Shown one piece after another: positions 36,452 through 51,293 of a stretch of 64,000 nucleotides of DNA. The DNA lies in NCBI RefSeq assembly GCF_007746075.1, contig NZ_CP036339.1, positions 3,811,786 to 3,875,785 of the forward strand, given 5' to 3'. Position numbers and translations under genes: made by a program. Positions within the stretch are counted from its first letter, which is position 1. Every line of letters starts with the position of its first letter. The notes below the pieces were generated by a model. It did no database searches, was not told the DNA's origin, and saw only the letters and a list, made by a program, of their open reading frames with translations. Origin of the DNA: Lacipirellula limnantheis. Its GTDB lineage: Bacteria > Planctomycetota > Planctomycetia > Pirellulales > Lacipirellulaceae.

Positions 36452-37345
36452 GTGGAAGCAATCTGTGCTCCAAGACGACTTGGCGACTTGGACGAGCAAC
36501 GATTACTGCACTACAAGGACTCAATGATCCGTGCAAACAGCATCAACACCGCGGTTAGTTACCTGGCCCATCTCCGCGCGGCGCTGAACGCTGCGGTCGA
36601 GTGGGGAATGCTTCCGCGACTGCCGAAGATACCTAAAATCAAACGCGGCAAGGGAGTCAAGTTGATGAGGGGGCGAGCGGTGACGCCCGTCGAGTTTAGG
36701 GCAATGTTGGAAGCAACGCCTGCGGTCGTCAGCGAAGCTTCGGCAGCTACTTGGCAATTTCTGCTCCGCGGCCTTTGGCTGTCCGGCCTTCGTCTTCAGG
36801 AAGCGTGTCTGCTGCACTGGGACGGCTACCGGGGCCATACGATCGACATGGATGGCAAGCGACCCATGTTCATCATTCGGGGAGAGCTGGAGAAGGGTCG
36901 CCAGGATCGACGTTTACCGATGGCTCCCGAGTTTGTAGCGTTATTGGCCACGGTCCCGCTAGAAGCCCGCTCAGGACCAGTTTTTCGGCCCCAGGCAAAG
37001 CGGCGTGGCGGGCCAACCCCAAGTCTTCACCGCATCGGCGAAGTCATCGCCAAGATCGGCGAACAGGCCAAGGTCGTCGTCGACGCCGATCCGCGCACAG
37101 GCGAGCCCACGAAGTTCGCTTCCGCGCATGATCTTCGACGGGCTTTTGGGTATCGTTGGGCGCCGCGCGTGATGCCTGCGATCCTGCAGAAGTTAATGCG
37201 TCACGCCTCAATTCAGACGACGATGCAGTATTACGTCAACATCGAAGCCGATGATGTCGCCAACGCACTGTGGGCGGCGACTAGCAACACTTTTAGCAAC
37301 AGTTGCGATTTTGAGGCGGCGATCGAAGAAGCGACCGATTCGTAA
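36452..37345 (+). CDS. Tyrosine recombinase (integrase), 5' end broken
   Basis: 297 residues from a GTG at 36452. Catalytic set: R114 (GLRLQEA), H226 and R229 (AHDLRR), H251 (LMRHASIQTT) and nucleophile Y260 (MQYY), so the catalytic domain is intact. The start is not natural. The same frame runs upstream to a TAG at 36290-36292 and encodes clear family sequence (ANVAWDAFRERHEQQ) but has no ATG, GTG or TTG there. The arm-binding N-terminus has therefore been lost or displaced by a frameshift. The gene ends 27 bases from the 3' end of tRNA-Phe, the classic position of an integrase that uses the tRNA as attachment site. Confidence 0.8.
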   Translation: MEAICAPRRLGDLDEQRLLHYKDSMIRANSINTAVSYLAHLRAALNAAVEWGMLPRLPKIPKIKRGKGVKLMRGRAVTPVEFRAMLEATPAVVSEASAATWQFLLRGLWLSGLRLQEACLLHWDGYRGHTIDMDGKRPMFIIRGELEKGRQDRRLPMAPEFVALLATVPLEARSGPVFRPQAKRRGGPTPSLHRIGEVIAKIGEQAKVVVDADPRTGEPTKFASAHDLRRAFGYRWAPRVMPAILQKLMRHASIQTTMQYYVNIEADDVANALWAATSNTFSNSCDFEAAIEEATDS

Positions 37346-37372
37346 GGTCTGGCTCGCGAAGCACTTAGGAAG

Positions 37373-37445
37373 TGGACAGGGGCGGGATCGAACCGCCGAC
37401 ACATGGATTTTCAGTCCATTGCTCTACCAACTGAGCTACCTGTCC
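37373..37445 (-). tRNA. tRNA-Phe (GAA)
   Basis: Complete cloverleaf on minus: acceptor GGACAGG/CCTGTCC, D stem GCTC/GAGC with loop AGTTGGTA, anticodon stem ATGGA/TCCAT with loop CTGAAAA (anticodon GAA, phenylalanine), five-base variable region, and T stem GGCGG/CCGCC with loop TTCGATC. The discriminator base is A and CCA is not encoded. 73 nt. Its 3' end faces the recombinase gene. Confidence 0.97.
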
Positions 37446-37876: not shown

Positions 37877-39487
37877 ATGCGCGCACATGGCCAAGCGACT
37901 CGCCTTCTCGGCCGTTTGACGATTGCACTTCTTGGGTTTCTGGCCGCCAGCCAGCAGACCTCTCTGGCGTACACCCCGGAAAGTCCCGAGGTGCTGGCCG
38001 TCGTCGACAAAGGCCTGAAATTCCTCGAATCGCAGTCGCACGGCGAAGTCGGCGGCAAGTGCCTGATCGCCTTGGCGTTTCACAAGCGCGGGATGTCCCA
38101 GGGGCATCCGAAAATTCAAGAGGCGCTCGAATCGTGTCGCTCGTCAATCGACGAGGAGAAGCAGCGCGGCTACCTGTACGGCAAATGCATCGCGATCATC
38201 TTCCTGACGGAACTCGATGCCGCGGCGCATCGTGACCTGATCAACGCCTATGTCTCGCAGCTGAAGGACTACCAAAAAGAACACGGCGGATTCGGGTACC
38301 AGGGGATTCCGACCGGCGATACCTCTCAAACCCAGTACGCCGCCTTGGCGTATTGGCAATTGTTGAATCACGGAATCAGCCCCGACGCCGACTCGGTGCA
38401 GCGTTGCCTCAATTGGCTCATGCGCACACGCGATCCCTCGGGCGTGTGGGGCTACCAGGGGATCGACCCGGGAAACTTTAACCTTGTCGAACAGCCCGAT
38501 AAGCCTGGCCGTTCCATGGCGGCCGCGGGAATGAGCGGCACGCTGATCCTGGGGAACCTCGTCGGGCTGCTGCAACCTCCAAGAGCGGAAACAGCGCTCG
38601 TTTCGAGCGAGCTTCCTGCCGCGCTGAAGCGCGTCGAAGCGCCGGGAACGACGCGCGCCCCGTCCCTCCCGCCCGGGAACGTCGACCCGCAGCGTCTAAC
38701 GGAAACCGTAGCCGCCGGTCGAGCCTGGTTCGACAAGAACTTCGGCTTCGAAGTCCATGAATATCAAAGTTACTACTACTATTCGATCGAACGGTTCCGC
38801 AGCTTTCAGGAGTACCTCGACGGCGAAGTAGTGGAGGATCCGGAGTGGTACAACGAAGGCTTCAAACGCCTGAAAGAGACTCAATCGGCCGAAGGGAGCT
38901 GGAGCGACAGCTCAGGACAAGCTTGTGCGACGGCCTTCTCCGTACTTTTTCTGTTGCGGTCGACGCAGAAGAGCATTGCCGCAAGCTTGGGCGAAGGAAC
39001 CCTCGTCGGCGGCCGCGGGTTGCCTCGCGATTTGTCGAAGGTGAAACTCCGCGGCGGCAGGCTGGTCGTTGACCAGAAACCGACCGAAGTCGACCAGCTG
39101 TTAGGGATGTTGGATGAGTCGAATTCAAGCTCGCTCGACGATCTGCTCGACAATCCCGCCGCGTTGGACGTGCACAATGTCGACGCCCAGGACGCCCGTC
39201 GCTTGCAGCAAGTGGTGAAGAGCGGTCCAGCCGGCGCCCGGATTATGGCCGTGCGTGCGTTAGCGAAGCTACGCGATATTGATTACGCGCCAACGCTGAT
39301 CTATGCATTAACCGACCCCGACAAGCGCGTCGTCCGCGAGGCGCGCGACGGACTGAGATCCGTCAGCCGCAACTTTGAGGGGTACGGGCCGCCCGATAAC
39401 TTTGAGGATGCCGAGCGCCGGGTCGCCGTCGACCGCTGGAAGCAGTGGTACCAAACGGTTCGTCCGGAAGCTCCGCCGCTGCCGTAA
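37877..39487 (+). CDS. Exported cyclase-fold (prenyltransferase/squalene-cyclase-like) protein with HEAT-like C-terminus
   Basis: 536 residues from the ATG at 37877, chosen because a signal peptide follows (LLGRLTIALLGFLAASQQTS). Residues about 35-350 form alpha/alpha toroid repeats with QW-like motifs (GGFGYQGIPTGDTSQTQYAA, GVWGYQG, GSWSDSSGQACATAF). The DxDD acid motif of squalene-hopene cyclases is absent, so terpene cyclisation is unlikely. About residues 440-500 look like HEAT repeats (ARIMAVRALAKLRD). It is the first gene of an eight-gene plus-strand cluster with ExbB/ExbD proteins and probably serves there as a binding or structural component of the envelope. Confidence 0.78.
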   Translation: MRAHGQATRLLGRLTIALLGFLAASQQTSLAYTPESPEVLAVVDKGLKFLESQSHGEVGGKCLIALAFHKRGMSQGHPKIQEALESCRSSIDEEKQRGYLYGKCIAIIFLTELDAAAHRDLINAYVSQLKDYQKEHGGFGYQGIPTGDTSQTQYAALAYWQLLNHGISPDADSVQRCLNWLMRTRDPSGVWGYQGIDPGNFNLVEQPDKPGRSMAAAGMSGTLILGNLVGLLQPPRAETALVSSELPAALKRVEAPGTTRAPSLPPGNVDPQRLTETVAAGRAWFDKNFGFEVHEYQSYYYYSIERFRSFQEYLDGEVVEDPEWYNEGFKRLKETQSAEGSWSDSSGQACATAFSVLFLLRSTQKSIAASLGEGTLVGGRGLPRDLSKVKLRGGRLVVDQKPTEVDQLLGMLDESNSSSLDDLLDNPAALDVHNVDAQDARRLQQVVKSGPAGARIMAVRALAKLRDIDYAPTLIYALTDPDKRVVREARDGLRSVSRNFEGYGPPDNFEDAERRVAVDRWKQWYQTVRPEAPPLP

Positions 39488-39595
39488 GCAACGCCGCTTC
39501 CCGACGGGGAGGGCGCCGCTTTTGATCATCCCAACGACCCGGTTCGTGACAGGTCGAATCGCTTCACCATCCAGTCCGCCGCAGGCACTTCCAGC

Positions 39596-40228
39596 ATGAA
39601 CGCTGCCAACAGTTTCGCCTCCCTCCTTGAAGACTGGTGCTATGGATTCCTGGCGCTAAACTTCTTCTGGGGGCTCTACCACCTGGTTCTCGGTTTTCGC
39701 CGCGTCAAGCAGCTCAGCTTCAAGAGCCACGACGATCAGGCCGAACTCATGGACGAGTTGCTGCCGTTGATCGAGGCAGGGCAATTCGATTCGGTCGAAG
39801 AACTTTGCGCCGACGACGCCCGCGCACTGCCGCAGCTCGCCTACATGGCCGTCGAGAATCGCGACCTTGCGGAACCCCAGTTGCGTCAGCTGGTCGCTGA
39901 AGTCGTGCAGCGCGACATCTTCGGCGATCTGGAATATCGATCCCGCTGGATCGCCACCGTTATTAAGAGCGGTCCGCTGCTGGGCCTGTTCGGGACGGTG
40001 CTAGGCATGATGGCGGCGTTCGGGCGCATCGGCACTGGCGCCAAGATCCAACCCTCGGAAATCGCCGGTGAGATCAGCATCGCGCTCATCTGCACTGCGA
40101 TGGGACTGATCACCGCCATTCCGTTTAACTTCATGATGGCGAGCCTCAATAACAGGATTCGCAAGTTTCAGGACGCGCTCGGAGCCGGCCTCGTGCGGAT
40201 TCTCGACGCGCTCAAGCACCGTTCCTAG
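39596..40228 (+). CDS. MotA/TolQ/ExbB family proton channel subunit
   Basis: 210 residues. There are three TM segments: about 16-33 (YGFLALNFFWGLYHLVLGF), about 118-143 (IKSGPLLGLFGTVLGMMAAF) and about 156-178 (ISIALICTAMGLITAIPFNF). A cytoplasmic helical domain lies between the first two, as in ExbB/TolQ. The TM2 GLFGTVLGM and TM3 ALICTAMGL signatures carry the family's conserved small and polar residues. With ExbD partners it forms a proton-driven motor in the inner membrane. It is 19 bases upstream of the first ExbD gene. Confidence 0.93.
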   Translation: MNAANSFASLLEDWCYGFLALNFFWGLYHLVLGFRRVKQLSFKSHDDQAELMDELLPLIEAGQFDSVEELCADDARALPQLAYMAVENRDLAEPQLRQLVAEVVQRDIFGDLEYRSRWIATVIKSGPLLGLFGTVLGMMAAFGRIGTGAKIQPSEIAGEISIALICTAMGLITAIPFNFMMASLNNRIRKFQDALGAGLVRILDALKHRS

Positions 40229-40246
40229 GCCGAAAAAGGGGCACCC

Positions 40247-40738
40247 ATGCATTCTGGCGGCGTGAACTTGGGCGGCGCTCACGGGGCCGACGATACGCTT
40301 TTGGCGCGTCGTCCCCTTGAAGACGACGCCGAGTTCGACATCACCGCCATGATCGACCTGGTGTTCATGATGAACATCTACTTCCTCGTGTCGTTCCTCA
40401 CCGCCGCGATGGGCGAGATCGCCATGCCGACCGCGCGCCATGTCGCGGCGCTCGATCCCGACACGTCGGTGAGAATCACCGTTTTGGGCAGTCTCGATGG
40501 CGAATCCATCAGCGTCTATCTCGGCAACGGCAAAGAGGGCGAGGAGATCAAGGATCCCGAGCAGCAGGAAACCAAGGTTCGCGAGTACGTTGAAAAGGCG
40601 CTCGCGGACGGAAAGACCAACGTCCTCATCAAGGCCGAGGCCAAAGTCCAGGAAGGTCAGGTCAATCGCATCTCGCTCGCCGCTGCCGTCGAAGGGATGA
40701 AGCTTCATGCCGGCGTGACGGAGATCGACGAGCCATGA
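40247..40738 (+). CDS. ExbD/TolR family protein
   Basis: 163 residues. A short cytoplasmic N-terminus precedes one TM segment (DITAMIDLVFMMNIYFLVSF, about 34-53). The proton-carrying aspartate is in ITAMIDLVF. The periplasmic C-terminal domain has a beta-alpha pattern typical of ExbD (VLIKAEAKVQEGQVNR). It sits between the ExbB gene and a second ExbD gene, overlapping the latter by four bases (ATGA). Two different ExbD-type proteins with one ExbB suggest a heteromeric rod. Confidence 0.9.
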   Translation: MHSGGVNLGGAHGADDTLLARRPLEDDAEFDITAMIDLVFMMNIYFLVSFLTAAMGEIAMPTARHVAALDPDTSVRITVLGSLDGESISVYLGNGKEGEEIKDPEQQETKVREYVEKALADGKTNVLIKAEAKVQEGQVNRISLAAAVEGMKLHAGVTEIDEP

Positions 40739-41349
40739 CGATCTCATTCGCCTGCCCGCTTTGCGGCAAGAAGCTTTCAGCGCCAGAGTCGCTCGTCGGC
40801 CGCGAACGGACGTGCCCGAAGTGCCGAGCGTCGATCAAGGTCCCCACCGCCGAGCAGGCCGCGCGCCGGAAACCTGCAGGCGACTCCCACGGCAGTTCGC
40901 CCCATGGCCTGCTGAGTTCCTCGGGCCCCGCGCACGAAGAAGATCTGATCGACATGACGGCGATGGTCGACATCGTCTTCTTCCTCTTAATTTTCTTCAT
41001 GGTCACCTCGCTTAGCGCGGTCGAATCGGTCATCGGCCTCCCGCCGCCGCAGAAAAAGACGTCCGCGCCGGTAGCTCAGGCGACGCCCGATCTGGCGAAT
41101 GATCCCAGCTTTATCTCCGTGACCATTGAAGAGGACGACACCGTTTGGGTCGAAGACGAGCAAGTGTTCGGCTCGCAAAGTCTGCGGGTTAAACTGAGAG
41201 ACCTCCGCAATCGCGACTTTCAACCGACGGGGATGGTCATTACCTGCAACCCGAAGGCGAGTCACGGGACGGCGGTGATGGTGCTCGACTCGGGGGCCGA
41301 CGTCGGCATGGAAGACATGCGACTTGCCGTGACCGAGGCAGTTGAATAG
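40735..41349 (+). CDS. ExbD/TolR family protein with N-terminal zinc ribbon
   Basis: 204 residues. Residues 7-33 form a zinc ribbon (CPLCGKKL and CPKCRAS, four cysteines). A linker of about 40 residues is followed by the ExbD TM segment (IDMTAMVDIVFFLLIFFMVT, about 76-95) with the proton-path aspartate in AMVDIVF. A periplasmic domain completes the protein. Ordinary ExbD proteins are 130-150 residues and lack the ribbon. The ribbon would be cytoplasmic, so it may sense metal or bind another subunit. The start codon overlaps the previous stop, indicating coupled translation. Confidence 0.88.
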   Translation: MTISFACPLCGKKLSAPESLVGRERTCPKCRASIKVPTAEQAARRKPAGDSHGSSPHGLLSSSGPAHEEDLIDMTAMVDIVFFLLIFFMVTSLSAVESVIGLPPPQKKTSAPVAQATPDLANDPSFISVTIEEDDTVWVEDEQVFGSQSLRVKLRDLRNRDFQPTGMVITCNPKASHGTAVMVLDSGADVGMEDMRLAVTEAVE

Positions 41350-41442
41350 GTCGCTCGTAGCGCGCCATCGACGACTACTTATGACTGGACGCACCAAGAA
41401 CTAAAATTTCTCTGGACTTCGAGCCGCCCCGCCCGCCGACTT

Positions 41443-42375
41443 ATGGCCATCGCCCCGCCCCCCACTACTACAACTGATCGATCGACGCAGGCCCGCGAGC
41501 AGTCGGCGCTAACGGTCAGCTCGTACGAGCGGTCGGCGACGCTGGTGATTTCGCTACTAGTCATTTTCGGCACGATGTTCGGCGGCTTGGCGATGATCTT
41601 CTTCGCCGACAAATTCAACCGCGAAGAAGTAGTCGCCATCGAATTTGTTCCCATGGAGGCGACTAGCCCCACGGGAAACGGCGGCTTTGGCACCGACCCC
41701 GAGCCGCCTGGCGTGGAGGATGGCTCGGAACTTGCCGAGCCAAACCTGGCGGAAACGTTGGCAGCGGTTGAATCGACGACCGAACTATTGAGCGACGCTG
41801 TCATCAGCGACAATGTCGCCGCGGACCTTGCCGTTCAAGGCTCTGACGAGCAGGCGAGCAAAGGGGGCGGCGTTGGCGACGCCCGCCAGCCGGGCCCCGG
41901 CAACGATGGCGTCATCGAGCGCGTGCCCCGTTGGGAACGCTGGAAGATCCGCTTTGAGCCGCCGTCCGCGGCCGACTTTGCGAAGTGGCTCGACCAGTAC
42001 AAAATTCGCATCGGCGTCCTTGGCCGGGACAATCAAGTCCATGTGGCGTACGGATTCGCGTCGGGCACGCCCACAACGGAGTCCGCCAAGCCAATCGAAT
42101 ATGGCGGCTGGGGACAAACCCTCCCGGCCGACGGCCCCATGCCGGCGCTGACGAAAGACTTGGCGCGCAAGGCCGGCACGCTGCAGCGCGGGCCGATTGC
42201 ACTGTTGTTCTATCCGCGCGAGGTCGAGCAACTGCTCTACACGCTGGAAAAGAATCGCATGGAACAATCGGCCCAAAAGAAACACGAGCCCAATAAGATT
42301 CGAGAAACCGTCTTCACGGTCATTCCGGATCGCGACGGTTACAAATTTGAAGTCGTCGATCAAAAATACTTCTAG
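41443..42375 (+). CDS. Single-pass membrane protein of the ExbBD cluster, TonB-like position
   Basis: 310 residues. A short cytoplasmic N-terminus precedes one TM segment (TLVISLLVIFGTMFGGLAMI, about 32-51). An acidic, Pro/Gly/Ala-rich linker of about 90 residues follows, then a folded periplasmic domain (about 160-310) with the stretch WERWKIRFEPPSAADFAKWL. No TonB signature box is seen, yet the topology (one TM anchor, extended linker, periplasmic domain, directly after ExbB and ExbD) is that of TonB. I do not recognise the periplasmic domain. A force-transducing partner of the ExbBD motor is the most natural hypothesis. Confidence 0.7.
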   Translation: MAIAPPPTTTTDRSTQAREQSALTVSSYERSATLVISLLVIFGTMFGGLAMIFFADKFNREEVVAIEFVPMEATSPTGNGGFGTDPEPPGVEDGSELAEPNLAETLAAVESTTELLSDAVISDNVAADLAVQGSDEQASKGGGVGDARQPGPGNDGVIERVPRWERWKIRFEPPSAADFAKWLDQYKIRIGVLGRDNQVHVAYGFASGTPTTESAKPIEYGGWGQTLPADGPMPALTKDLARKAGTLQRGPIALLFYPREVEQLLYTLEKNRMEQSAQKKHEPNKIRETVFTVIPDRDGYKFEVVDQKYF

Positions 42376-42429
42376 CACGGCCCGTCGCCGCCAACTCACT
42401 CGCACTGCCTGGACCCGAACGCCGCCGTG

Positions 42430-45400
42430 ATGACTACCGACGACTTCATCGACCTTCTCGAACAGCAGCGGCTCGTGCAAGACGGGGTTGCCCGCCAGCT
42501 CCGCGCCAAGTCGCGTCAGGGCGACTCTCGGATCACGCCGCAGTCGATTCTCAAGTATCTCGTCAAAAAAGACTTGGTCACTCGCGCCCAGGCCCGGGTC
42601 CTCCTCGAAACGACGCTTGTCGTCAGCGACAAGGCCGAGTCAAGCATCCTCGGTCTCACGCCGCTGGGAAGCGCCGCCGCGCCCCGACCGCCGCAGGCCA
42701 TGCCCCATATCGTCGAGGACGACGAGCTGGAGATTGTCGAGTTCGAGGACGAAGCCGATGCCACGGGCCCCGCCGCGATTGCCGAACCGTTTGACGCCGG
42801 CGCCGCGGCGTTCGATGCGCCAACCGCAATCGACGGCGGCGGCGAGCTGACCGCCGAAGAAGACCGGCCCCGCCGTTCGGCGGCCGGCAGCAAACTGCGC
42901 CCCGCGTCGCTGCGGAAGCCCAAGGGCAAGAAGTCGAGTCCTCCCAAGAAAAAGAAGTCCGGCAACGACGGTGAAAAGAGCCAGTGGGACTCGCCGCTGC
43001 TGCTCATGGGAGGCGGCGCCCTGGCGGTGTTGGTCGTGGGCAGCGTCGTCCTCTGGTGGTTGCTGTTTCGCGAGACCGCCGACAAGTCGCTGAAGGAAGC
43101 GCAGGCTGCCTTCGACGGCGGCAACTATGCGCAGGCGACCACGCTCTACAAAGAATTCGTCACTAAGTATTCGCACCACAAAGACGTCAGCGAAGCCAAA
43201 GTTCGCGCCGGCCTCTCGCAGTTGTGGGACCTGTCGGAAAGCAGCAATTTCGCAGGCGCCGCCGACCTGGCCCCGACCATCCTGACCGAGATTGAAAACG
43301 AACCAGCGTTTATCTCGAACGCCGAGCAGAGCAGCAGTATCACCACGGCCAAACAAGAGTTGTCGCAACTCCTGCCGCGCATTGCTCGCGGACTTGCCGA
43401 CCAGGCGGAAAAGGCGTCGGACGAAGAAACCGTCACGAAGCGACTGGAACAGGCGAACGTCGTCCTCGCGCTCGCTTCCAATACGAAGTACATTCCGGAT
43501 GAGCTTCGACAGACGACCCAGATCGGCGAAATTCAGGAAACTCTCGCGCTTGTCCAAACGCGATTGCAACGAAAAGTCGATCTGGCGGCGGCCCTGGCGA
43601 AGATGGCAGAAGTCACCGCCGCGGGCAAACCTGCCGAGGCGCTGAAAATTCGCGACACGCTCCTGCTCACCCATCCAGCGCTGAGCGACGACCCGTCGCT
43701 CGCAGAAGCGATTTCGAAAGTCGGGGTCGCCGAACAAGCGGCCGTGAAATTCGTCGCATCGAAGCAGGTCGCGGTAACGACGCCGGCCGAAACTTCCATC
43801 GTGGCGGAACTCGCACTTGCTGATCGTCGCGGTCCAGCGGCGACAGGGGCCGCCGCGCCCGTCGTTGTCCGCATCGATGGCGCGCTCTATGGGCTGGGCG
43901 GCGGCGATGGAGCGCTCCTCTGGCGGCGATTCGTCGGACCAGACGTCGCATCGTATCCCGTGCTGCTCCCCAGCGGCGTGGTCGTCGCCGCCGACGCGCA
44001 GCGGCACGAGCTGGCAGCGTTCGACGGCAAGAGCGGCAAGCTCGTTTGGCGGTTGCCCCTTGCAGGCAGACTGGCGACTGCCGTGCCTTTCGGCACTCGC
44101 CTGCTGGTGGCTAGCGACGCAGGGCGCATCTACGTCGTTGATCAAGCGAGCGGTGAATCAGCGGGATACGTCGAGTTTTCGCAGCCCATTCGCCAGGCGC
44201 CTGTCGTCAATGAGCGCGGCGATCGCATTTATGTCCTTGGCGAACACTCGAACCTTTATACGCTCTCGGCCGACAAGCTCGCCTGCGTCGGCGTCTACTA
44301 TCTGGGCCACTCGGCCGGAGGGGCCGCGACCCCGCCCATCGCGGTGCTTAACAAAGTCATCGTCGCCGACAACTCGGGCGCCGAGACCTGCCAAGTCCGC
44401 GTGCTCGCCCTCAACGACCAAGGCGCTCCCGACGCCGACGCGGCGAACTACCGGCTGCCAGGACTCGTGACGACGCCGCTGCAGGTCGCCGGCAGACGTT
44501 TCGCGACGGTCACCTCGCAGGGACAGGCGATCGTCTTCGAAGTGGCCGCGGGAAACGACAAGTCAGCGCTGACGCCGCTTGCCTCGCGCGACGCGAAAGA
44601 CGGCGAACAGCTGGCGCGGTTCAGCCTGCTGCATGACGGTCATCTATGGCTCGCCGCGCGCGGTCTCACCAAGCTCGCCATCTTGCCCACGGGAAACCAA
44701 TTACCGGTCCGCAGCATCGAGCGCGACTATCGCGCGGACGCTTTTGACTATCCGTTACAGTCGATTGGCAGCCTGATCATCCACGTGCGACGGCCGGCAG
44801 GGCAGGGGGGCGCGATCGTTGCGGCCATGGACGCCTCGTCAGACAAGGCCCTGTGGGAAACGGCCATCGCCGTCCCTCCCGCCGGCCCGCCGGCGGTTGA
44901 CCCCAGCAGTCAGCAAATCATTGCCGGCTCGTCATCGGGCGCCGTTTATGTGCTGAACCGCGAAGCGCTCGCGCGCCGCGTGCAGGACCAAGCCCTGCGC
45001 ATCGATTCCGCTTCGCTCAAGCCGACTCTGTTCAACGACGCGCTCGACTTGGGCGGCGGACGACTGGCCCTCGCAGGCGCCGGAGCTGCGAAGATCGTCC
45101 ACTTTCGCCCGAACGACCCGCGGCAACAATTGCGCGAGATCGAACTCCCCGGCCCGCTCAGCGGCGCCCTGACCGCGTGGGGCGAAGGCTTCGCCGCTCC
45201 CAGCGAAGTAGGACAGGTCTTCCTGTACAACGCTGACGACGCGGCAGTGGCAGCGACGCCGTTTCAGCCGGAACTCACTCCCGGCACGACGTATCGCTGG
45301 CTGCCGTCGGCCGTCGCGGGCACAGGAACCAATGCACAACTCATCGCGTCCGACGGCGTTGGCAAAATCTACCTGGTGCGACTCGCGGCTGAACCTGACG

Positions 45401-45885
45401 CTCACCTGGAGGCAACTGCGAGCGTCGACGTCGGTCCTTCGCCGCTAGTGACGCGTTTGGCCGCCGTCGGCGAAACGGCATTCGTTGGCAATCAGGCCGG
45501 TAAACTCGCTCGCTTCGCGGTTCCTGACCTCGCGCCGGGTGAAACAACCGACGTCGGCGGACAAATTGCCTGGGGTCCGTATGCCGCGAGCGATGGCGTG
45601 CTGCTCGCCAACGATGCGAACGAACTGTTGCTCGTAGGCGTCGATGGCGCCGTCAAATGGCGCCAGCCGCTCGCCCACGGCGCCGTGGGCGGCGCACCGC
45701 TGCTGGCCGACGGCCATGCATTCTTGCTTCACCCCGTCGGCATCTCGAAGGTCAACCTGGCCGATGGCAGCGACGCCGGCTTCGTCGACGTCGGCCAAAA
45801 CCTCGCGGCCGGCCCCGTCGCATTCGCAGGTCGCTTAGTGGTGGCAGCCGCGGACGGCACGCTGCTCGTCGTCAACCAGCCCTGA
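42430..45885 (+). CDS. Membrane-anchored beta-propeller protein with N-terminal helical module
   Basis: 1151 residues from the ATG at 42430 (a GTG one codon earlier is possible). Residues 1-65 are a helical module (FIDLLEQQRLVQDGVARQLR, then ILKYLVKKDLVTRAQARVLL). An acidic and then a very basic linker (KPKGKKSSPPKKKKS) leads to a TM segment at about 190-212. TPR-like repeats follow (about 215-270: AQAAFDGGNYAQATTLYKEF). From about 460 on is a PQQ-type beta-propeller with repeated blades (DGKSGKLVWRLPLAGRL, DQASGESAGYVEF). The propeller is periplasmic. Quinoprotein activity is unlikely without a visible cofactor site; protein or glycan binding is more plausible. Confidence 0.82.
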   Translation: MTTDDFIDLLEQQRLVQDGVARQLRAKSRQGDSRITPQSILKYLVKKDLVTRAQARVLLETTLVVSDKAESSILGLTPLGSAAAPRPPQAMPHIVEDDELEIVEFEDEADATGPAAIAEPFDAGAAAFDAPTAIDGGGELTAEEDRPRRSAAGSKLRPASLRKPKGKKSSPPKKKKSGNDGEKSQWDSPLLLMGGGALAVLVVGSVVLWWLLFRETADKSLKEAQAAFDGGNYAQATTLYKEFVTKYSHHKDVSEAKVRAGLSQLWDLSESSNFAGAADLAPTILTEIENEPAFISNAEQSSSITTAKQELSQLLPRIARGLADQAEKASDEETVTKRLEQANVVLALASNTKYIPDELRQTTQIGEIQETLALVQTRLQRKVDLAAALAKMAEVTAAGKPAEALKIRDTLLLTHPALSDDPSLAEAISKVGVAEQAAVKFVASKQVAVTTPAETSIVAELALADRRGPAATGAAAPVVVRIDGALYGLGGGDGALLWRRFVGPDVASYPVLLPSGVVVAADAQRHELAAFDGKSGKLVWRLPLAGRLATAVPFGTRLLVASDAGRIYVVDQASGESAGYVEFSQPIRQAPVVNERGDRIYVLGEHSNLYTLSADKLACVGVYYLGHSAGGAATPPIAVLNKVIVADNSGAETCQVRVLALNDQGAPDADAANYRLPGLVTTPLQVAGRRFATVTSQGQAIVFEVAAGNDKSALTPLASRDAKDGEQLARFSLLHDGHLWLAARGLTKLAILPTGNQLPVRSIERDYRADAFDYPLQSIGSLIIHVRRPAGQGGAIVAAMDASSDKALWETAIAVPPAGPPAVDPSSQQIIAGSSSGAVYVLNREALARRVQDQALRIDSASLKPTLFNDALDLGGGRLALAGAGAAKIVHFRPNDPRQQLREIELPGPLSGALTAWGEGFAAPSEVGQVFLYNADDAAVAATPFQPELTPGTTYRWLPSAVAGTGTNAQLIASDGVGKIYLVRLAAEPDAHLEATASVDVGPSPLVTRLAAVGETAFVGNQAGKLARFAVPDLAPGETTDVGGQIAWGPYAASDGVLLANDANELLLVGVDGAVKWRQPLAHGAVGGAPLLADGHAFLLHPVGISKVNLADGSDAGFVDVGQNLAAGPVAFAGRLVVAAADGTLLVVNQP

Positions 45886-45917
45886 TCCGCGAGCACTTTC
45901 CGCAGTTCATCATCTCC

Positions 45918-48416
45918 ATGCGCACCTTCCCAGAATTCGCGATTCGCGTCAGCATCATCTGCATGCTGTGGGCCTGCGCGCCAAGGTGGAGTGCACCCCA
46001 CGCCTGGGCGCAGGAGTCGTCGACCCCGGCGGGGGGAGCGGCAGCTGCGAGCGCGCCGGCGGCCGCGTCGGGCTCCGCAACTGACGAGGCGGTCGAGATC
46101 GCCGTTCCCCTCCTCGAGCGCTCGCCGTTCGACCGAATCACGCTCGACGCGGCGAATCAGAACGCGGTGATCGAAACAGTCGTTCTCGACCTTCCCAATC
46201 GACAACTCCCCAACCCGCTGCCGACCACCGGTTCGCTCGATATCCGCCGTCTGCGCCACCCCTCGATTCCTTATACGGTGCAGTGGGCCGCGATTACCAA
46301 GGTCGAATTCTTCGAACAAATGCTTCTCGCCGAAGCCGAGCGGCTCACGGCCGAAGGCAAGTTCGGCGACGCCTTCGAATATCTGGCGTTCCTCACCGCC
46401 AACTATCCGCAGCTGCCGGGGCTCGAGCAGGCGCTGCAGACCCACCTCTGGCGCGAGGCTTCCGCCTCTTACGCGGCCAAGAAGCACGCCGAGGCGTGGC
46501 CGGCGCTAGTGGCGCTCTACGAGCGCAACGCGAACTATCCCCGGCTGGTCAACGCCGTCCAGGCGGTGAGCGACGACTTGATCGCCCGCAGGTTGCAGGA
46601 TCGCGACTACGCCGCCGCGCGAACGCTCGTCGAAGCACTCTCCCGCAGCTTCCCCAAGCTCAACCTCGCCAATGTCGCGCGCTGGCAGGGCCAGTTCCAG
46701 AGCGACGCCGAGGCGCAGCTCGCCCGAGCGCGGAAGGCGTTCGCTGCGAAAGACTATGGCGAGGCGCGCGACGCCATTGCCTTCGCCCGCTCGATCATGC
46801 CCGACATTCCCGGCGGCGTCGAACTGTGGAAAGAAATCCAAGCGACGGCGCCCGAAATTCGCGTCGGCGTGACGCAACCGGCTCCGCCGGGCGTCATGTC
46901 GCAGACGCCGACGTGGGCCGCAGCGCGAGTGAGCGACCTCGTCAATCCGCGGCTGGTGGAAATGGTCGACTTCGGCGCTGAAGGCGGCGTTTACGCATCG
47001 CGCTGGAGCGACTTGAAAGCCAGCGACGACGGACTCCGCACAGCGATCACGTTGAAGCCCCTTGCGGTCGAACGCGGCCTCCGCGCGAGCACCCTCGCCC
47101 TCCGACTAGTCGAAATGGCAAGCCTGCAAGGCGATCGCGCCCAGGCCGATTTCGCTGCCCTCACTGCCGGCGTCCAGTTGACGAAGGGCCGCGGCGTTGA
47201 AATTGTCTGGCGGCGCCCGCACGTCCGCCCGGAGGCGTTCTTGCAAATTCCGCTGCGCTGGCTCGCAACGGCGAGCGAGGCGCCGGGGCTGTGGTTTGAT
47301 CCGCAGCCGGCCAAGCGAGACGGCATCGAGCACCCCTTCGAGCGTTCCAGTCCCCCCTCCGCCGCTGCGGGGGAACCGCGACTCGTCGTCGAAATGCAAT
47401 ATCCCGACGACGAGTCGATGCTCGACGCCTTGATGCGCAACGACGTCGACGCCATCGACCGCGTGCCGCCCTGGCAACTCGCGAGCGTCGAGAACGCCGC
47501 CACGGTCTCGGTGGTCCCCTACCGATTGCCGACCGTCCATGTGCTGATCCCCAATCCTGCCAATCCTCTGCTGGAGGTCCGCGAATTTCGCCGCGCCCTC
47601 AACTATGGAATCGACGCCGAAAGCATCGTGCGGGACATCATCCTCGGCGGCGAAACTCGCGCCGGCTTTCGCACGCTCAGCGGTCCCTTCCCGGCCGGCG
47701 TGACGCTGAACGACCCCGGAGGTTATGCCTACAACCCCGAGGTGGCCCCGCGGCCCTACGAACCGCGCCTGGCGGCCCTACTCGCCGGCGTCGCCAGGAC
47801 GACGCTTGCCAAACGCGAGGAAGAAAAGAAAAAGGCCGAGGCGGAAGCCAAGGCCAAAGCGGCAGCCGCCACTGAGCCCCCAACGACCGAAGGAGACGCC
47901 GCGAAGAAACCAGCGGCTTCTAGCGATGCTCCCGCAGCCGAGACGCCCGCCCCGCCCCCGGCGCCGCTGATCCTCGCCCATGCCGCCGACCCGGTCGCCC
48001 GGCTGTCGTGTCAAACAATCAAGTTGCAACTCGACCTGATTGGCATCCCGATCAAGCTCGCCGAATTCAAAGGTTCCGCCCCGCCTGCCGAACTCAAGTA
48101 CGACTTGCTCTACGCTGAACTCGCCGTTTGGGAGCCCGTGTACGACGCCCGCCGGTTGCTTGGCGCCACTGGCGTCGCGGGGCGTGCCAGCGCCATGATG
48201 GCCGCCGCCCTCGATCAACTCGACCGTGCGGAGAATTGGAACCAGGCCCGCGACCAGCTGCGCGAAATCCACCGCATCGCTCACTACGATCTGCCGTTGA
48301 TTCCGCTCTGGCAAACGGTTAACCATTTCGCCCACCGCAAGTCGCTCAGCGGCGTCGGCGCGTCGCCAGTCACCCTGTATCAGAATCTCGCTAATTGGCG
48401 TAAGTCGATCGAATAG
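45918..48416 (+). CDS. Periplasmic solute-binding protein family 5 with N-terminal TPR-like region
   Basis: 832 residues from the ATG at 45918. The signal peptide is FAIRVSIICMLWACAPRWSA, ending near AWAQ. Residues about 130-310 are helical TPR-like repeats (LLAEAERLTAEGKFGDAFEY). A family-5 (peptide/nickel) solute-binding domain follows (about 320-830), with VSDLVNPRLVEMVDFGAEGG and VREFRRALNYGIDAESIVRD. A charged, Lys/Glu/Ala-rich insert sits near 635-680. No ABC permease or ATPase is encoded nearby, so it is unlikely to feed a normal importer. It lies 32 bases after the propeller gene and 8 before the next, hence in the same transcript. Confidence 0.8.
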   Translation: MRTFPEFAIRVSIICMLWACAPRWSAPHAWAQESSTPAGGAAAASAPAAASGSATDEAVEIAVPLLERSPFDRITLDAANQNAVIETVVLDLPNRQLPNPLPTTGSLDIRRLRHPSIPYTVQWAAITKVEFFEQMLLAEAERLTAEGKFGDAFEYLAFLTANYPQLPGLEQALQTHLWREASASYAAKKHAEAWPALVALYERNANYPRLVNAVQAVSDDLIARRLQDRDYAAARTLVEALSRSFPKLNLANVARWQGQFQSDAEAQLARARKAFAAKDYGEARDAIAFARSIMPDIPGGVELWKEIQATAPEIRVGVTQPAPPGVMSQTPTWAAARVSDLVNPRLVEMVDFGAEGGVYASRWSDLKASDDGLRTAITLKPLAVERGLRASTLALRLVEMASLQGDRAQADFAALTAGVQLTKGRGVEIVWRRPHVRPEAFLQIPLRWLATASEAPGLWFDPQPAKRDGIEHPFERSSPPSAAAGEPRLVVEMQYPDDESMLDALMRNDVDAIDRVPPWQLASVENAATVSVVPYRLPTVHVLIPNPANPLLEVREFRRALNYGIDAESIVRDIILGGETRAGFRTLSGPFPAGVTLNDPGGYAYNPEVAPRPYEPRLAALLAGVARTTLAKREEEKKKAEAEAKAKAAAATEPPTTEGDAAKKPAASSDAPAAETPAPPPAPLILAHAADPVARLSCQTIKLQLDLIGIPIKLAEFKGSAPPAELKYDLLYAELAVWEPVYDARRLLGATGVAGRASAMMAAALDQLDRAENWNQARDQLREIHRIAHYDLPLIPLWQTVNHFAHRKSLSGVGASPVTLYQNLANWRKSIE

Positions 48417-48424
48417 GAATCGCG

Positions 48425-49939
48425 TTGCCGCCCTCCACCATTCACCAACGACCTCCGTCGCGTCCCCGCTGCTTGAGCGGCCGGACGTCGTGGTTAGCCT
48501 GCGCGGCGATGTTGGTCGCTGGCTCGCTGGACGCCCGCGCCGCTGAACGCGCCGTGTGGGAACATTCGCCCTACCGAGTCCTCGCAACCCTCGCCGTCGA
48601 CGACCACTCCCGCCCGCAGCTTGACCTGCCAACCTCGCTGAGCGGACAAATCGCCGCCCGCGTCGAAGGTTCGCTCCGTCCGCTCTGGGACTTCAAGATT
48701 GATAGCCCCGACGCTGGGGCCGCCCGCCGGCAATGTTTTGAGCTGCGTGAGATTCCTTGGGATGAACTCTCGGCCGACCAGAAAGCCAATGACAAGCTCC
48801 TCTGGCTCGGCGTGCGGGTCCTCCCGCATGGCTACGAGCTCGCGGCTCGCGAATTCGACGTCCACATGCGCCGGTGGGGCCCCGTCCAACGCCGCGTCGT
48901 TCAACAGTCCTCGTTTCTGGCAGAAGCGAGTTTCGAGCTGCTGCAGGCGACGTTTTCGCCGCTGGCCATGGTCGAGCCCATCGAGGGCAACGATGAACAA
49001 GTGCAACTTGTCTTTCGAGGCAGCCAGTTGCCCCGACCATCCGGCGAGGAAAGCTTCGTGACGCCAGGCGAGGCGTACTTGCCGCTGCTGCGCCGCACCG
49101 ATCGCTCGGGCAAAGTGATTGAAGGCGGCATCCTTCCCGTCCCCTGGACCTATCTCACGGCCACCGAAGCCAACGATGCCGGTTGGCTCGCCAGCGTCCA
49201 CAGCGGGGTGCGTCGCCCTTTCGGAACTGGCAAGAAGGGCCTCGTCGAACAAATCGCCGTCGGCCTCCGTCTGCCGCCCGGCGCGACGCCCGTCCGCTTC
49301 CACGCCCGCACCGATAAGTCGCAAGGGCTCGCCGGCTACGAAGTCTTTCGCGAAACGCCCGACGGCGGCAGCGAACGCGTCGGCGTCACCGATCGTAACG
49401 GCATGATTGTCGTCCCGCCAAACGGCGCAGCAGTCTCGATGCTCATGCTCCGCAGCGACGGGCAAGTCCTCGCCAAGGTGCCGGTGGCCAGCGGCGGCAG
49501 CGACGTCCAGCAAACGCCCATCGCCGACAATGTGACCCGGCTGCAAGCGCAGGCCGAGGCACAAGTCGTTCGTGAAGAACTCATCGACCTCGTGGCTCGG
49601 CGCGCAATCGTGATGGGCCGGGTGAAGGCGATGCTCAAGAAAAACCGCATCGACGACGCCAAGGAGCTGATGAGCGAGCTCGACGCGATGCCGTCGCCGT
49701 CGGTCTTCGGTCGCACCATCGAAAACGCGGCCCGTCGCATTCCGAAGTCCGACGACGCATCGGTGCAGAAACGAATCGATTCGCTCTTCAGTTCAACGCG
49801 CGACATGCTGACGAAGTTTCTGAACACCCGCCCCGTCACCGAGCTGCAAGACCAGGTGAACGAGGCGGCCAAGACTCAGCCCCCGGCCGCTGCCGAGACG
49901 ACCGAAGCGCCCGCCGACGCGGCGGCGCCGACTAGCTGA
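48425..49939 (+). CDS. Exported protein of unknown function, last gene of the ExbBD cluster
   Basis: 504 residues from a TTG 8 bases after the previous stop. The signal-like run is TSWLACAAMLVAGSLDARA, so an internal start nearer this is possible. Residues about 45-300 are beta-rich with no motif I know. About 290-345 resemble a beta-sandwich (AGYEVFRETPDGGSERVGVT). The C-terminal third is helical, probably coiled coil (LQAQAEAQVVREELIDLVAR), ending in an Ala/Glu/Pro tail. The gene overlaps the convergent kinase gene by 8 bases. Its fixed place suggests a periplasmic partner of the solute-binding protein. I do not recognise the family. Confidence 0.72.
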   Translation: MPPSTIHQRPPSRPRCLSGRTSWLACAAMLVAGSLDARAAERAVWEHSPYRVLATLAVDDHSRPQLDLPTSLSGQIAARVEGSLRPLWDFKIDSPDAGAARRQCFELREIPWDELSADQKANDKLLWLGVRVLPHGYELAAREFDVHMRRWGPVQRRVVQQSSFLAEASFELLQATFSPLAMVEPIEGNDEQVQLVFRGSQLPRPSGEESFVTPGEAYLPLLRRTDRSGKVIEGGILPVPWTYLTATEANDAGWLASVHSGVRRPFGTGKKGLVEQIAVGLRLPPGATPVRFHARTDKSQGLAGYEVFRETPDGGSERVGVTDRNGMIVVPPNGAAVSMLMLRSDGQVLAKVPVASGGSDVQQTPIADNVTRLQAQAEAQVVREELIDLVARRAIVMGRVKAMLKKNRIDDAKELMSELDAMPSPSVFGRTIENAARRIPKSDDASVQKRIDSLFSSTRDMLTKFLNTRPVTELQDQVNEAAKTQPPAAAETTEAPADAAAPTS

Positions 49940-51293
49940 AAATCGCCAGTGCCGCGGCCGCAATCGCCACGATCATCGCCATTCCGAGCAGCATAAACAG
50001 GCCGAAGCTCACGCCCGCCCATTCCCATGGCTTGACGGCCGCTGGCCCCGCCGACTTGGAAAAGATTAGCGCCGAGTCGCCGAGCGTCATGGGCAGCCCC
50101 GCCAGCGGCATGGCAGTCGATGTTCGTGTCGGCGTTTGTTCGCCCGTGTCGATATCGCCGGGGTCGACCGTCACCGTGTCCGCCAAGTTTCCGGCAATAA
50201 ACGACTTCTCGCCCGGGTCCGCGGCGTACTGGCCAATCTGACGCCACGTATTTTCGTCGGCCGTCGCCGTCCAGGGGCGTAGCCGCTCGACCACTTCGGC
50301 GGCTGATCCGATCCGCTCTTCAGGCCGCTTGTGCATCATCTGGGCGATCAATTCCGCCAGCGCTTGATCGAGCTGCGGCGTGAAGCGCGTCGGCGTCAAC
50401 GGCGCCTCTTCCAAGTGGCGACGCAGCTTGTCGCGCGTGGCGCCCCCTGGGTACGGCACCTTCCCCGTCACGGCGTAGTAGAGCGTGCAGCCAAGCGAAT
50501 AAATATCGCACGATCGCCGCACTTCGCCCGGATTGGTGATCGCTTCCGGTGCGATGAAGTCGGGCGTGCCGACGATATGTCGAGGCCCCCCCGCCGCGGC
50601 CGGCGCGTCTGAAGAGAACGAGGCCAGTCCCAGGTCCGTCAACTTCGTCAAACCCTCCGGCGTGACGAGCAAGTTGCCAGGCTTCACGTCGCGATGCACC
50701 AGCCCGCGTTCGTGCGCGTACGCCAGCGCCTCGGCTCCCTGCGACACGACCAGCGCCGCCTGCCGCTCGGTCAGCGGGCCATGATGTCGTACGAGGCGAC
50801 GAAGATCGCTGCCGGGCACGAATTCAGTAACGAGGAAATAGGTCTCGCCTTCTTTATCGGCGAACGACAGGCGCACCAGATTGGGATGATCGAGCTGCGC
50901 CTGCGCGCGGATTTCGCGCCGGAAGGCCTCGATCGAGCGCGGGTCCATCTGCGTTTTGGGCAGTACCTTGATCGCCTCGATCCGCCCCAGCAGGAAATGC
51001 TCTCCCTTGAACACGTATCCCATCCCGCCGTGACCGATCGCGTCCAGAATTCGATACGGCCCCAGCGTGAACTTGGTCCGACCATGCCGAAGTTGCTCAG
51101 CTTGCCAAGGATTGAGGTAGCCCAGCTTGATCAATTGCTCGCTGAGCACGTCGTCGGAGAGATTGTTCAGCGAGCGAATCCCCGATCGCAACGGATCGAC
51201 CATCGCATGCCAGGCGCGGTCAATTTGCTCCTGCGTCAGCAATCCGCTGGCGAGGCCCGCTTCTTCAAGAATGGAGTGATGCGCGTGCGCCAA
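49932..51293 (-). CDS. Membrane-anchored Ser/Thr protein kinase
   Basis: 453 residues. An N-terminal helical module at 1-75 (LLTQEQIDRAW, then LGYLNPWQAEQLRHGRTKFT) precedes the kinase domain, about 75-340. Glycine loop IGHGGMGYVFKG, lysine in EAIKVLP, catalytic loop VHRDVKPGNLL, metal motif DLGLASF and the region IVGTPDFIAPEAI are all intact, so it should be active. The C-terminal TM segment is VSFGLFMLLGMAMIVAIAAA (about 428-447). It phosphorylates unknown Ser/Thr targets from the inner membrane. The stop overlaps the convergent ExbBD cluster by eight bases. Confidence 0.92.
   Translation of the reverse strand: MAHAHHSILEEAGLASGLLTQEQIDRAWHAMVDPLRSGIRSLNNLSDDVLSEQLIKLGYLNPWQAEQLRHGRTKFTLGPYRILDAIGHGGMGYVFKGEHFLLGRIEAIKVLPKTQMDPRSIEAFRREIRAQAQLDHPNLVRLSFADKEGETYFLVTEFVPGSDLRRLVRHHGPLTERQAALVVSQGAEALAYAHERGLVHRDVKPGNLLVTPEGLTKLTDLGLASFSSDAPAAAGGPRHIVGTPDFIAPEAITNPGEVRRSCDIYSLGCTLYYAVTGKVPYPGGATRDKLRRHLEEAPLTPTRFTPQLDQALAELIAQMMHKRPEERIGSAAEVVERLRPWTATADENTWRQIGQYAADPGEKSFIAGNLADTVTVDPGDIDTGEQTPTRTSTAMPLAGLPMTLGDSALIFSKSAGPAAVKPWEWAGVSFGLFMLLGMAMIVAIAAAALAIFS

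Follow-up and report, generated by a model that had tools for sequence, protein, structure and literature searches.

Closest described systems

The described systems closest to the locus considered here are Tol-Pal (TolQRAB-Pal-CpoB) and Ton (ExbB-ExbD-TonB), and a 2025 survey of force transducers has added other planctomycete loci of the tolQ-tolR-tolR arrangement with von Willebrand factor A (vWA) transducers (PMC12204202). The locus itself, from Lacipirellula limnantheis (order Pirellulales, class Planctomycetia), is a cluster of eight genes, numbered 1 to 8, at positions 37877-49939 of a 64,000-nucleotide stretch of contig NZ_CP036339.1 (positions 3,811,786 to 3,875,785), here called the window. 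Genes 2 to 4 encode a motor of the ExbB/ExbD type (ExbB, ExbD1, and ExbD2). The kind of system, a trans-envelope one energized by TolQR/ExbBD, is already known, but the partner set was not found described: literature searches returned no published planctomycete cluster of ExbBD, cyclase, and solute-binding protein (SBP) genes. The initial annotation of the window had proposed an undescribed envelope system linked to the proton-motive force (PMF), a proposal backed by a gene order kept across the class. The roles it suggested, uptake of large molecules or control of envelope shape, stay hypothetical.

With Tol-Pal the cluster shares a TolQ/TolR-type motor, a protein composed of a transmembrane (TM) helix, a linker, and a globular domain, a TolB-N-like fold, a propeller, and tetratricopeptide repeats (TPRs). 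In contrast to Tol-Pal, it has no TolA, two different ExbDs, a propeller that is membrane-anchored and of the BamB type, and added SBP and cyclase-fold proteins; nor is TolB_N detectable by sequence in the order, PF04052 being found in 0 of 39 Pirellulales, the window's genome included, with a positive E. coli control. Against the NCBI equivalog models, the motor scores 63.9 bits for tolQ (cut-off, 221) and 20.9 and 27.3 for tolR (cut-off, 127.3), indicating membership in the homologous family only. The Ton system likewise combines an ExbB/ExbD motor with a periplasmic protein having a single TM helix, but the window's genome has neither TonB_C (PF03544) nor the TonB-dependent receptor plug (PF07715), the latter being found in 4 of 18 class genomes. 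The lack of TonB receptors first noted near the cluster thus holds genome-wide. TonB_C and the plug both occur in three genomes which carry the cluster too (G017, G335, and G360).

The vWA transducers of the Planctomycetes-Verrucomicrobia-Chlamydiae group (PMC12204202) resemble the cluster in having a tolQ-like gene with two different tolR genes, a non-TonB transducer candidate, and a TPR partner. Here, however, gene 5 lacks the TM His motif, fold searches with its C-domain gave no vWA match, and both the set of genes and their arrangement are different. Two proteins also recall parts of other machines. Residues 48-282 of gene 8 have a predicted fold that tentatively resembles FlgT of the flagellar H ring, a protein that likewise works for a motor driven by ions and located at the outer membrane (OM), but gene 8 has no detectable sequence similarity to FlgT, no flagellar context, and extra CnaB-like and helical parts. 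Gene 7 contains the complete SBP_bac_5 fold of NikA/DppA-type SBPs of ATP-binding cassette (ABC) transporters, but it is fused to TPRs, and a permease and an ATPase are absent from the block.

Class-wide conservation and exchange of the motor

The eight-gene block is real, old, and class-wide. Genes 5 and 8 were found in 45 and 44 of 59 relatives, respectively, are essentially single-copy, and lie ~8 to 10 kb apart when on one contig, in genomes throughout the order. Searches for gene 8 succeeded in 171 of 198 genomes of Planctomycetia, and among the 244 genomes of the phylum sampled, gene-5 matches below E 1e-50 were confined to this class, the profile having been built from Pirellulales, so that distant homologs outside could escape it. 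The ancestral order, reconstructed from 40 order-level loci, is 1-5-ExbB-ExbD1-ExbD2-6-7-8. Gene-order conservation over planctomycete genomes, the check suggested in the initial annotation, extends to the class level in a synteny sample of 100 loci, several of them truncated by contig ends. Genes 6, 7, and 8 directly follow one another in 54 of 58 loci from Pirellulales, 19 of 21 from Planctomycetaceae (f21), and 13 of 18 from Isosphaeraceae (f93), while all eight genes stand together in 40 of the 58 Pirellulales loci and in 6 Planctomycetaceae loci. In Planctomycetaceae the cluster is also split in places, with gene 5 still retained. A scan of named genomes left this picture unchanged, adding some lone gene-1 homologs.

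In the window and in G003, the motor triad is placed between genes 1 and 5. Trees of ExbB and gene 5 were used (genes 6 to 8 were not placed in a tree). The ExbBs of the window and G003 group (100/100) with the unlinked copies of G016, G024, and G053, with the ExbB inside the G048 cluster, and with an additional ExbB of G036, whereas the native ExbB of G002, from the same genus, and that of the family fall in a different clade. The gene 5 placement, however, follows the genus. A CxxC..CxxC zinc ribbon in ExbD2 is likewise found in the window, in L044, and in the unlinked G016, G024, and G053 copies, and in none of the native Lacipirellulaceae cluster copies examined. The two trees and the zinc-ribbon distribution indicate that the motor triad is replaced by a foreign type, while gene 5 is vertically inherited. 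Of the genetic evidence, this swap points most strongly to a need of the other proteins for a motor, and it argues for such a dependence.

Two further loci carry related genes. In G036 (L081, 4464-7765), a second gene-5 paralog and a type II ExbB-ExbD-ExbD triad are divergently arranged; the swapped motor may have come from this system. The window's genome (6.83 Mb, with five MotA/ExbB-type loci) has a second ExbB-ExbD pair followed by a cyclase-like gene (L300, 4467-7761; C1 about 6.115 Mb), where the association recurs.

Elsewhere, the five non-motor genes are kept with ExbBD absent from the cluster, as seen in Isosphaeraceae, in genus g12 of the Lacipirellulaceae, and in G053, G054, and G327; the five are still together in 12 of 18 Isosphaeraceae loci. 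A model of the cluster-type ExbB recovers a single unlinked ExbB at 246 to 250 bits in G016, G024, and G053 and at 159 to 190 bits in six Isosphaeraceae, the next-best ExbB in all of these falling below ~100 bits. Each such high-scoring ExbB is followed by two ExbDs, forming an ExbB-ExbD-ExbD triad. In the ExbB tree the Isosphaeraceae copies branch separately; they are likely, although not proven, to be orthologous to the cluster ExbB. No high-scoring cluster-type ExbB was found in G054, G327, family f94, or G028 (58% complete). The initial annotation had counted separation of the other five genes from ExbBD against a joint system, and such separation is indeed found in Isosphaeraceae, g12, and a few others. 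Since the triad is kept elsewhere in most of them, and the motor has been replaced in situ in the window's genus, the link between ExbBD and the five genes nevertheless survives. The neighbors of relocated ExbBD genes, considered as a functional clue, are not conserved (amidase-like in L287/L288, pectate lyase in L289) and were set aside.

Predicted parts and competing explanations

The proton channel and two ExbD-type rods named in the initial annotation are recovered by Pfam as MotA_ExbB and ExbD matches. Gene 2 (PF01618, 1.3e-23) has pore threonines that are invariant in the alignment, the TM Asp motif of gene 3 (PF02472, 2e-8) is present in 65 of 71 relatives, and gene 4 matches PF02472 at 1.7e-19. 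Three other early assignments also stand. The cyclase-fold/HEAT protein, gene 1, matches SQHop_cyclase_C (6e-8), with HEAT_2 below the cut-off, and its PDB profile matches are the squalene-hopene cyclase C-domain and HEAT repeats. The membrane-anchored propeller with TPRs, gene 6, has a PQQ_2/BamB match and a TM helix; in the PDB profile search its TPR part matches BamD and its propeller parts match BamB. The TPR-SBP fusion, gene 7, has TPRs and SBP_bac_5 (PF00496, 2.7e-13), and its profile aligns with NikA at E 2e-22 over profile positions 273-722, covering the whole NikA/DppA fold. A working cyclase is rejected for gene 1, as the DxDD motif is not conserved: it is absent in the window, and the 11 of 66 relatives that have DxDD have it at scattered, chance positions.

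Genes 5 and 8 are without any Pfam match in a search of the eight products. In the AlphaFold model of gene 5, the C-domain has a predicted local distance difference test (pLDDT) score mostly >90, and PDB searches by sequence and fold (Foldseek, VIA-align) returned weak, unrelated rows with no confident known fold. Gene 5 was initially called TonB-like, a label that failed in all but the TonB/TolA topology, there being neither TonB_C nor another Pfam match and no PDB relative; its identification as TonB or TolA is rejected, unsupported by sequence, motif, or fold. The gene 8 model (pLDDT, 84.7) retrieves the FlgT ring chain 8z5n_0 (3.6e-7) and TolB (4.3e-7) in Foldseek. With VIA, residues 48-282 align to FlgT at Z 9.0-9.2 (root mean square deviation, about 9 over two domains) and residues 49-180 to the TolB N-domain at Z 8.0-8.7. 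At Z 8-9 this predicted resemblance is suggestive only.

We see an even chance that the eight products form one PMF-driven trans-envelope machine, working in a Tol-Pal-like manner with other parts and acting in envelope tethering or remodeling. We favor this reading because of the near single-copy conservation across the class, the fixed order, the triads kept elsewhere, the motor swap, and the gene 8 fold, and because TolB_N is missing from the 39 Pirellulales and TonB_C and the plug from the window's genome. A further reason is the distribution of budding and crateriform structures: Planctomycetia bud and have such structures; binary fission is the division mode of Phycisphaerae, and Phycisphaeraceae cells lack crateriform structures (PMC8882080). 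In the proposed machine, proton flow through ExbB, ExbD1, and ExbD2 would move the gene 5 product, whose periplasmic C-domain would act on a partner at the OM or the wall. The likeliest receiver of this force, near the OM, would be protein 8 with its TolB-N/FlgT-like domains. Protein 6 may be a propeller/TPR scaffold that joins the motor to the periplasmic parts, with its cytosolic domain leading to Ser/Thr-kinase signaling, while proteins 7 and 1 may supply ligand or muropeptide sensing and scaffold. The job would be cyclic tethering or remodeling of the OM and wall, perhaps at the bud, in bacteria without TolB and mostly without TonB.

Several observations weigh against this reading. In family f94 the set is scattered, with gene 7 found without its partners, and G054 and G327 keep the five genes without any cluster-type ExbB; a dedicated motor is thus perhaps not always required, or not recognized, in these lineages. 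The C-domain of gene 5 has no known fold, and a TM-region His, as in TolA and TonB and in the SHLS motif of vWA transducers, is found in only 2 of 85 gene-5 proteins. The gene 8 fold matches are moderate (Z 8-9).

In the main rival reading, which is less likely, the same parts could instead serve macromolecule uptake, with ExbBD and gene 5 powering the entry of polysaccharide or other polymers across the OM, the gene 7 SBP catching the cargo, and an entry port, for example, at crateriform structures, being built from the propeller/TPR and TolB-N/CnaB proteins. Consistent with this, the SBP domain is complete, dextran is taken up or bound by the class at the fibers of crateriform structures (PMC5394234), gene 5 was not convincingly found beyond Planctomycetia while Phycisphaeraceae lack these structures, and the window's genome offers no alternative route by TonB and TonB-dependent transporters. 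Uptake is doubtful nonetheless, as no OM beta-barrel, ABC permease, or ABC ATPase is found among the eight genes, G335, G360, and G017 own a true Ton system yet keep the cluster, and the crateriform link is one of co-distribution only. A further, improbable reading is that the cluster assembles or operates a surface structure (crateriform pore, fiber, or stalk base); gene 8, with folds like those of FlgT, CsgG, PelC, and CnaB, would then lie in a ring or pilus base energized by ExbBD as the flagellum is by MotAB. Its appeal comes from the top gene 8 fold matches, which include FlgT of the LPHT ring, PelC, CsgG, and several CnaB pilins. The same fold is found in TolB, LpoB, and many lipoproteins, however, CnaB/transthyretin sandwiches are common, and the Pfam search detected no pilin, secretin, or flagellar families among the eight genes.

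The motor and the other five genes might also be neighbors by inherited order alone, without joint function. Synteny is generally stable here, with a tRNA-Phe, a kinase, and an RluA-like gene also conserved, and the motor is missing from the cluster in several lineages. Against this quite improbable explanation, the 12 Isosphaeraceae loci keep the five genes together after the motor left, most genomes with motor-less clusters have the ExbBD triad elsewhere, and the cluster has received a motor of foreign type within its bounds.

Layout, neighbors, and significance

All eight open reading frames were confirmed (Table 1), with intergenic gaps of 108, 18, -4, 93, 51, 29, and 8 bases, in agreement with the initial description of eight plus-strand genes with gaps from -4 to 108. 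An alternative ATG start for gene 6 is possible at 42430.

Table 1. Genes of the cluster and flanking features, in window coordinates
Feature	Position	Strand	Description
tRNA-Phe(gaa) (context)	37372..37445	-	conserved neighbor upstream of cluster
Gene 1	37877..39487	+	exported protein with alpha/alpha-toroid (fold of the squalene-hopene-cyclase C-domain) and HEAT
Gene 2	39596..40228	+	proton channel subunit of the ExbB/TolQ type; in window's genus, the swapped "type II" form
Gene 3	40247..40738	+	ExbD/TolR-type subunit 1, TM aspartate retained
Gene 4	40735..41349	+	ExbD/TolR-type subunit 2, N-terminal cytosolic zinc ribbon
Gene 5	41443..42375	+	one TM helix (27-58), then a long linker predicted as disordered and an alpha/beta C-domain of globular type (161-310); candidate force transducer
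Gene 6	42427..45885	+	helical cytosolic domain of kinase-N type, TM helix, TPR resembling BamD, two propeller stretches resembling BamB
Gene 7	45915..48416	+	exported TPR + NikA/DppA-family SBP
Gene 8	48425..49939	+	exported; TolB-N/FlgT-like domains (48-282), CnaB/transthyretin-like sandwich (284-367), helical C-terminus
Ser/Thr protein kinase (context)	49932..51293	-	convergent, recurrent neighbor; Pkinase 1.8e-52

The products of genes 1, 7, and 8 have export-type hydrophobic N-termini; lipoprotein status was considered for them and dropped, as lipoboxes are chance-like, occurring in just 10-17 of 66-96. A Pfam search found no Pal/OmpA-like domain among the eight genes, and no genome-wide search for Pal/OmpA was made.

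The Ser/Thr kinase is the convergent neighbor of the cluster in 29 of 100 loci, and an RluA-like gene is a further conserved neighbor. The N-domain of gene 6 (residues 1-65) resembles planctomycete Ser/Thr-kinase N-domains (hhalign probability, 97.9), and the neighbor at 49932-51293 has a related N-domain; a membrane propeller protein that is not a kinase thus carries a kinase-type N-domain on its cytosolic side. On the other side, a tyrosine recombinase (36452-37345, +) lies next to the tRNA-Phe, a possible remnant of an integrative element. The tRNA-Phe also stands beside the cluster in L044, L046, L047, L048, L053, and L088, and as the pair is kept into Pirellulaceae (L088), a recent island is rejected. 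In L154, L155, L158, L160, L166, and L171 the cluster is preceded by a divergent pair of extra genes, cyclase-like and propeller-like, and 13 Isosphaeraceae loci (L128-L143; e.g., L128 2849-3484) have a regulator-like gene close to gene 8.

Planctomycetes divide without FtsZ, and the candidate machine would bear on how they handle macromolecules and energize the OM. We tentatively suggest, as a possibility we rate as rather unlikely, that the cluster is a class-defining trans-envelope motor of Planctomycetia, a replacement for Tol-Pal in OM and wall remodeling during FtsZ-less budding (or a crateriform uptake apparatus), coupled to Ser/Thr-kinase signaling. Loci L304 and L305, the likely orthologs in Planctopirus limnophila, would place the genes in a tractable organism. 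The main text of the transposon-directed insertion site sequencing paper on P. limnophila makes no mention of Exb, Tol, or TonB (PMC10632474). Speth et al. reported TonB from no more than four planctomycete genomes and took its absence to mean the lack of a bridge across the periplasm (PMC3422733). A class-wide, proton-driven candidate for such a bridge, with named genes, would alter that picture.

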